A stretch of 64,000 bases of DNA from Phycisphaerae bacterium (GTDB lineage: Bacteria; Planctomycetota; Phycisphaerae; Phycisphaerales; SM1A02): assembly GCA_016873275.1 (NCBI GenBank), contig VGXO01000006.1, positions 1 through 64,000 on the forward strand, written 5' to 3'. A model generated the notes under the pieces. The model was not told the origin of the DNA and ran no database searches. It worked only from the letters and a program-made list of their open reading frames with translations. The position numbers and the translations under genes were made by a program. Shown here piece after piece: positions 8,877-10,456 of the stretch (its first letter is position 1; every line of letters starts with the position of its first letter).

Positions 8877-9536
8877 TCAGTTGAGCGGCTCCTCCTCCGG
8901 CTCGAGCGGGCGCGAGATCAGGTACGCCCCGCGCATCCACCGCGAGAGATCCGCCAGCCGACACCGCTCGGAGCAGAACGGCGTCGTCGCCGGTGCCGAC
9001 GGCCGCGCCCGGCAGATCGGGCACGTGGGTCCGTCCGGCTCGACCGCGGCGCCGAAGAGCGTCCGCAGCGCGTCGGCGAGCCGCGCCGCCTCCCGGGCGT
9101 CGCCTCGGCGATCCCGGATCTCGAGGCGCCTGCGGTCGCCATCCTCGGATCGGATCCGGCACTCGATCGACCTCGCCGGACGACGGTCGCCGAGCCGGGA
9201 TGCCCACTCGATCGCGCCGACCGTCCGAGGCTCGCCGAGCATCTCGTCGAGATCGATCCCCGCGAGGCGATCCGGACCATCCACGCGGTAGGCATCGGCG
9301 TGGACGAGCGATCGAGAGGGTCCGTCGTACCGCTGGGCGATGACGAACGACGGGCTCGACACGGACTCCGCGGGAATGCCGAGTCCGACGGCGAGCCCTC
9401 GCACGAGGCAGGTCTTGCCGGCGCCGAGGTCGCCCTCGAGGAGGATCACGTCGCCATCGCGCACGAGCGAGGCAAGGCTCGCGCCGAGCGACTCCGTCTC
9501 CTCGGCGCTCCGCGTGATGAGCACGACGACGCTCAT
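8877..9536 (-). CDS. tsaE: TsaE-YacG fusion: tRNA threonylcarbamoyladenosine ATPase with C-terminal zinc finger
   Basis: Residues 1-165 are TsaE, the ATPase that works with TsaB and TsaD to make t6A37 in ANN-reading tRNAs. Visible motifs are the Walker A GDLGAGKT at 35-42, SPSF at 61-64, HADAYR at 79-84 and IEW at 109-111. Residues about 171-212 match YacG, a small zinc protein that inhibits DNA gyrase: Cys172 and Cys175, then FCSERC (Cys188, Cys192) and RLADLSRW..AYLI, in YacG order and spacing. No stop or likely start separates the two parts. TsaE alone is usually about 150-160 residues and YacG about 65. The ATG overlaps the thiL stop as ATGA, so it is the last gene of a waaA-thiL-tsaE unit. 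Confidence 0.9.
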   Translation of the reverse strand: MSVVVLITRSAEETESLGASLASLVRDGDVILLEGDLGAGKTCLVRGLAVGLGIPAESVSSPSFVIAQRYDGPSRSLVHADAYRVDGPDRLAGIDLDEMLGEPRTVGAIEWASRLGDRRPARSIECRIRSEDGDRRRLEIRDRRGDAREAARLADALRTLFGAAVEPDGPTCPICRARPSAPATTPFCSERCRLADLSRWMRGAYLISRPLEPEEEPLN

Positions 9537-10456
9537 CGCGGATCCTCCCGACCGTGGTCGTAGCCCATGGCGCTTCCGTCGATTACCCGCCCGCCGTCGA
9601 GCAGGCGCACCGTCGGTCCGTCGCCACGCTCGACGACGCGCCCGATCACCCGCACCGGCGTGCCGGAGACCTCCTTCGGCGGCTCGGCACCGGTCGTGAA
9701 CAGGAGCTCGAAGTCCTCGCCGTCCCCGACGGCTCGCCGCCACCCGAGACCGCGCCGCGCCGGAATCCGCGCGACGTCGATCTCGATCGCAAGGCTCGGC
9801 GACTCCGCGAGGAGGCGCGACGCATCGATCCCGAGACCGTCGCTCAGGTCGAGCATCGCGTGAAGCTCCTCGCCGAGCGCCTCCGCGAGGGCGATCGCCT
9901 CGGGAATCCGCGGCGGGAATTCGAGATGCCGCCCGCCTCCATCCGCCTCGAGCGATCCGCCGAGCTCGCCCGTCACCGCGACGAGGTCGCCGAGGCGGCT
10001 GCCGTGCCGGGTGATCACGCGACCTCCCCGAAGCGCCGGCACCGCGAGGATCGCGACCGACACGACGAGCGGATCGTCCCCCGCGTGCACGGTCGTGTCG
10101 CCGCCGACGAGCGGGCAGGCGAACGCCTGCGCGACCTCGCGGAGCCCGTCGAGAAGCGCCCGCGCATCCGCGTCGCTCGCCCCGCGCGGCAGCGTCACCG
10201 ACGCGACGCACGCGAGCGGTCGCGCCGCCATCGCGGCGACGTCGCTCAGGTTCCGAAGCAGCGCCTTGCGGGCGACGAGCCGGAGGTCGGTGCCGGGGCG
10301 GAAGTGACGCCCCTCGACGACCGCATCGATCGCCGCAAGCACGCGCCCCCCCTCGACCGCGAGCATCGCCATGTCGTCGCCGGTCGGCAGCAGCACCGAG
10401 GCGGTGCCCGGAGGATCGGTCCGCAGGAGATGGCGGATGAAGGTCGACTCGAGCAT
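9533..10456 (-). CDS. thiL: Thiamine-monophosphate kinase
   Basis: The 307-residue protein phosphorylates thiamine monophosphate to thiamine pyrophosphate. It shows the ThiL/PurM-like fold signatures: LLPTGDDMAML with the acidic metal site, ARKALLRNLSDVAAM, LVGGDTT, AVTGELGGS, MLDLSDGLGIDASRL and GDGEDFELLFT, all in family order. Length is normal. Its ATG shares one base with the stop of waaA (TGATG), and its own stop overlaps tsaE as ATGA, so all three genes are likely translated in a coupled way. No thiamine riboswitch is visible, as expected for a gene inside an operon. Confidence 0.94.
   Translation of the reverse strand: MLESTFIRHLLRTDPPGTASVLLPTGDDMAMLAVEGGRVLAAIDAVVEGRHFRPGTDLRLVARKALLRNLSDVAAMAARPLACVASVTLPRGASDADARALLDGLREVAQAFACPLVGGDTTVHAGDDPLVVSVAILAVPALRGGRVITRHGSRLGDLVAVTGELGGSLEADGGGRHLEFPPRIPEAIALAEALGEELHAMLDLSDGLGIDASRLLAESPSLAIEIDVARIPARRGLGWRRAVGDGEDFELLFTTGAEPPKEVSGTPVRVIGRVVERGDGPTVRLLDGGRVIDGSAMGYDHGREDPR

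Follow-up and report, generated by a model that had tools for sequence, protein, structure and literature searches.

A tsaE-yacG gene fusion in a Phycisphaerae bacterium and its relatives joins a t6A-synthesis ATPase to a YacG domain

We analysed the first 64,000 nucleotides of contig VGXO01000006.1 from a Phycisphaerae bacterium (hereafter the window), and found one open frame of 219 amino acids on the reverse strand at positions 8877-9536. The frame starts with ATG at 9536, preceded by a Shine-Dalgarno-like GGAGG, ends with the stop at 8877 and has no internal stop. It encodes a TsaE domain (9129-9512, reverse strand), a linker (residues 137-170; 9027-9128, reverse strand) modelled in part as a helix (residues 147-161), and a YacG domain (8892-9026, reverse strand). 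The linker holds no in-frame start codon. No ATG, GTG or TTG occurs in frame between residue 99 and residue 201, so an internal start is unlikely to yield a YacG protein of its own. The upstream gene thiL, for thiamine-monophosphate kinase (9533-10456, reverse strand; TIGR01379, 181.5 bits with a cut-off of 184.15), probably shares an operon with the fusion gene, because its stop codon overlaps the fusion ATG as ATGA. The convergent neighbours on the opposite strand encode an aspartate kinase and TypA.

The TsaE domain (residues 9-136) matched Pfam PF02367 with 113.7 bits (cut-off 26.6, E 7e-33) and NCBIfam TIGR00150 with 77 bits (cut-off 60.1). TsaE, also known as YjeE or YdiB, is the ATPase of the bacterial TsaB-TsaD-TsaE complex and drives t6A synthesis together with TsaD-TsaB (PMC11648230). 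Its characteristic motifs (Walker A, SPSF/SPTF, HxDxYR and EW) are also found in the fusion as the P-loop GDLGAGKT, SPSF, HADAYR and E110-W111. Residues K41, T42, H79, D81, R84, E110 and W111 are all present, and are invariant in our alignment A1. In the AlphaFold2 model of the whole protein (P0001; mean pLDDT 92.3), the TsaE part agrees with 5np9 (TM by target 0.88) as well as with the TsaBDE structures 6n9a (chain E) and 6s84. Solved TsaE chains are single-domain proteins of about 141-184 residues, whereas the fusion adds a C-terminal YacG domain. Among the matches listed from plasmid records, only the TsaE part was found, and no match spanned most of the query.

The C-terminal part (residues 171-215) matched Pfam PF03884 with 40.2 bits (cut-off 25.5, E 2.8e-10). 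Its best NCBIfam match was YacG PRK01343 (53.9 bits, below the equivalog cut-off of 79), and it scored under both YacG equivalog cut-offs (79 and 83 bits). The preliminary description, made from the letters of the window, had read a complete TsaE running without a stop into YacG. The single frame bears this out, and the Pfam matches show that both domains were named correctly. The Walker A, SPSF and HADAYR motifs and C172, C175, C188 and C192 lie at the positions it gave. It had named a stop or frameshift between the domains, or a failing YacG profile, as grounds for rejection; we saw no such stop or frameshift, and the C-terminus passes the PF03884 cut-off.

YacG is an endogenous inhibitor of E. 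coli DNA gyrase (4TMA, 1LV3), and the fusion has in common with it the C4 zinc motif, the core PFCS-x-RC-(x)3-DL-x-x-W and an acidic C-terminal tail. The four cysteines listed above correspond to the zinc ligands, D196-L197 to the DL pair, and W200 aligns with W40 of E. coli YacG, the residue that is inserted into GyrB (PMC10886550). E. coli YacG binds GyrB by this insertion and by its tail, which is essential, and holds gyrase off DNA (PMC10886550). E. coli YacG is a free protein of 65 amino acids, whereas here the domain forms the C-terminal part of TsaE with a different tail sequence: the 19 residues after W200 form an acidic tail that is shorter than the E. coli tail, which contacts GyrB and GyrA, and dissimilar to it in sequence. 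A phmmer comparison of the YacG part with 4tma_I and 1lv3_A gave a weak match (E 0.03). No YacG structure was among the top 50 Foldseek matches of the P0001 model, and the VIA-align matches listed were to the TsaE domain and have no bearing on the C-terminal part.

Among 127 aligned YacG domains of the order, 100% have the GyrB-contacting tryptophan, and the DL pair is nearly invariant. The invariance of the tryptophan speaks mildly for retained gyrase binding, and could instead be structural. In close pairs, dN/dS was 0.04-0.34 for the YacG part and 0.07-0.37 for TsaE, so both halves are under purifying selection. Since the YacG values are comparable to those of TsaE and mostly below those of the linker, the YacG half is being preserved and is not a decaying tail.

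The host genome comprises 3.23 Mb in 136 contigs and is rated 100% complete. It encodes the expected partners elsewhere: TsaD (276 bits), TsaC (195 bits), a TsaB-like frame (a partial 58-bit match of the TsaD/TsaB family, together with our reading of the frame) and GyrB. The preliminary description had proposed looking for a separate yacG, and none was found in the genome; there was also no second TsaE above threshold. The GyrB pocket for YacG includes F513 (PMC5507300), and its equivalent is conserved in the host GyrB. For inhibition by YacG, a GyrB with this residue is a prerequisite at most. The residue proved uninformative as a marker of YacG use; it is also kept in relatives that have no YacG.

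To place the fusion among its relatives, we compared 148 loci, namely 147 fetched from the order and the window, which were classed by profiles built in this analysis. Of the order's 151 genomes, 122 gave a YacG match and 147 a TsaE match. We identified 83 fused loci, 43 with adjacent tsaE and yacG on the same strand, 21 with TsaE only and one YacG with no tsaE nearby; the TsaE-only loci were picked where YacG had not been found, and the proportions are those of this sample. The fusion spans six families. Family f1 has 24 fused and 20 TsaE-only loci, f2 has 36 fused, 8 separate and one TsaE only, and f4 has 8 fused, 35 separate and one YacG only; all loci of f3, f5 and f26 (8, 6 and 1) are fused.

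An assembly or frameshift error that joined two adjoining genes was considered, given that the genome is a 136-contig assembly. The search for the same architecture in relatives, which had also been suggested beforehand, found it to be common in the order, at another 82 loci, some of them in single-contig assemblies (for example G167, G252 and G268). With the frame being single and the relatives carrying the same fusion, such an artefact is refuted and has practically no probability left. The fusion of the two genes is genuine and has been inherited.

Several loci and genomes differ in detail. In L101 (G258), the TsaE match is divided into two segments of one frame, as would be seen if the domain were interrupted by an insertion. 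L181 (G332) and L182 (G284), both of the window's family, have a TsaE that is divergent or cut by the contig end, and G161, of the window's own genus, and G341 gave no TsaE match at all. G264 (280 contigs) has two tsaE-yacG pairs (L047 and L066), reflecting duplication or contamination.

Outside the order, in its class and phylum, tsaE lay within 1.5 kb of YacG at none of 70 loci, and no yacG was found within 6 kb of tsaE at two loci from other groups. In E. coli, yacG is far from tsaE. A general bacterial tsaE-yacG neighbourhood was rejected, having been seen neither at the 70 outside YacG loci nor in E. coli. Adjacency of the two genes and their fusion both seem characteristic of this order. 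YacG itself is more widely found (157 of 246 genomes of the phylum). A review describes YacG as a proteobacterial protein (PMC10886550); our data place it outside the proteobacteria that this literature stresses.

The separate pairs indicate how the fusion may have arisen. In 34 of the 43 pairs, the YacG domain starts at most 100 nt from the tsaE stop, and 19 of the 43 have a possible in-frame yacG start at -4 that overlaps this stop (ATGA/GTGA-type). This distribution suggests that yacG came to adjoin the 3' end of tsaE in this order, often with overlapping starts and stops. With yacG directly downstream and the start and stop overlapping, the two genes would already have been co-transcribed and translationally coupled. 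They would then have come into one frame when the tsaE stop was lost or a small indel occurred, and fusion or its reversal would have occurred more than once. The joining of a translationally coupled gene pair is thus the most likely origin of the fusion, and it probably happened several times. The preliminary description had suggested that the fusion could couple translation status with DNA topology; the neighbour and overlap pattern accounts for the origin without any such coupling.

A tree of the TsaE domain (131 columns, 143 rows) was poorly resolved, and required a minimum of 10 switches from fused to separate or back (6 among the f4 rows alone and 3 among the f2 rows), as well as 7 changes between presence and absence of YacG within f1; tree errors of this weak kind tend to inflate such counts. 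These repeated changes, the overlapping starts and stops common among unfused pairs, and a linker that ranges from 11 to 118 residues in the fused proteins would also be consistent with a neutral fusion, in which two overlapping genes are read together, the halves are independent and their joining has no consequence. Against this stands the occurrence of the fusion in six families and at 83 loci. Neutrality differs from our preferred explanation, a bifunctional chain, mainly by denying a benefit of equal dosage, and we regard it as unlikely.

Family f2 provided a further observation on the YacG half. E. coli YacG has four zinc cysteines, whereas 34 of the 36 fused f2 proteins (L123, L127, L129-L141, L143-L158 and L160-L162) retain the first and have the other three replaced, in most cases C12 by T, C28 by A or S and C32 by A (E. 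coli numbering). They keep the motifs CPxTG, PF, ERA and ADLxxW, with P26, F27, D36, L37 and W40 conserved in 100%. All 8 separate f2 YacG proteins have the four cysteines. Two separate f4 loci flagged by the motif search (L086 and L112) were left out of this count, as their matches begin past the first cysteine. The zinc-less domains score around or below the Pfam cut-off. The AlphaFold2 model of one zinc-less protein (L158, genome G032) has a mean pLDDT of 93.1, and its C-terminal part matched gyrase-bound YacG (4TMA chain J) with probability 1.00, target TM 0.68 and 38% identity over 48 columns, although with an E-value of 0.13. As modelled, the zinc-less form still resembles gyrase-bound YacG. 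Since zinc loss takes at least 4 steps on the weak TsaE tree, the 34 proteins go back to one or a few events and are not independent cases.

The loss of three zinc cysteines in these 34 proteins while purifying selection persists could be expected if YacG had changed its role. The preliminary description had likewise considered a different role here, such as nucleic-acid binding. Under this alternative, the domain was recruited to t6A biology and lost its gyrase target; it would stabilise or regulate TsaE or TsaBD, or bind tRNA, and the fusion and its neighbourhood would reflect the new partnership. The confinement of tsaE adjacency and fusion, within our sample, to this order also fits. However, D36-L37 and W40 show little or no variation, the zinc-less forms included. 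Furthermore, the family to which the window belongs includes 20 relatives with TsaE and no YacG, so t6A synthesis there can do without YacG. We consider such a change of role rather unlikely.

We favour, as the probable explanation, that each half keeps its ancestral job on one chain of equal dosage. From conserved motifs and models, the TsaE half would serve t6A synthesis as the TsaB-TsaD-TsaE ATPase. The YacG half, tied to it by the variable linker, would bind GyrB through W200 and the acidic tail and could hold gyrase off DNA. The outcome would be an equimolar output of t6A and GyrB activities, with regulatory cross-talk optional. Points for this bifunctional chain are the sole YacG and sole over-threshold TsaE of the genome, the separately encoded partners, the fused and adjacent pairs seen inside the order and not at the loci sampled outside it, the TsaE motifs retained in fused forms and the other motifs kept, the dN/dS values and the match of the TsaE-part model. 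The shorter, divergent tail, a W200 that could be conserved for structure, the non-discriminating F513 and the lack of YacG in the Foldseek top 50 count against it. If produced in the amounts of a housekeeping t6A factor, a gyrase inhibitor would also have to be weak or controlled. We rank equal-dosage bifunctionality first, a changed YacG role second and pure neutrality third.

In a stronger version, the YacG module of this order would have become a permanent regulatory component of the t6A ATPase, in one family no longer dependent on zinc. GyrB binding would be tied to ATP- or TsaBD-bound TsaE, and tRNA modification status would tune gyrase activity, or the other way round. The data do not call for such a link of tRNA modification with DNA topology, and we hold this version to be improbable.

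Fusions of t6A-related domains have precedents in Kae1-Bud32 (MJ1130) and in proteins with YrdC and Kae1-like domains such as TobZ and HypF (PMC9654439). These unite partners of one pathway or reaction, whereas YacG is no t6A component. In the literature searched, which leaves most subscription papers and domain-architecture databases outside its coverage, we found no description of the TsaE-YacG architecture and no paper on YjeE together with YacG; a genome comparison was the one paper found under the names TsaE and YacG together. Both domains belong to known families; their combination and the zinc-less fused form are new relative to the sources covered.

The fusion represents a widespread natural pairing of a tRNA-modification factor with a gyrase-inhibitor domain. 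A set of conserved YacG domains that lack three of the four zinc ligands makes it testable whether gyrase binding needs the zinc or only the tryptophan and helix surface. Close relatives may be fused, split or devoid of YacG, which likewise makes coupling testable by comparison, and one genus holds two of these states: L125 (G102) is fused, and L163 (G335) has TsaE without YacG.
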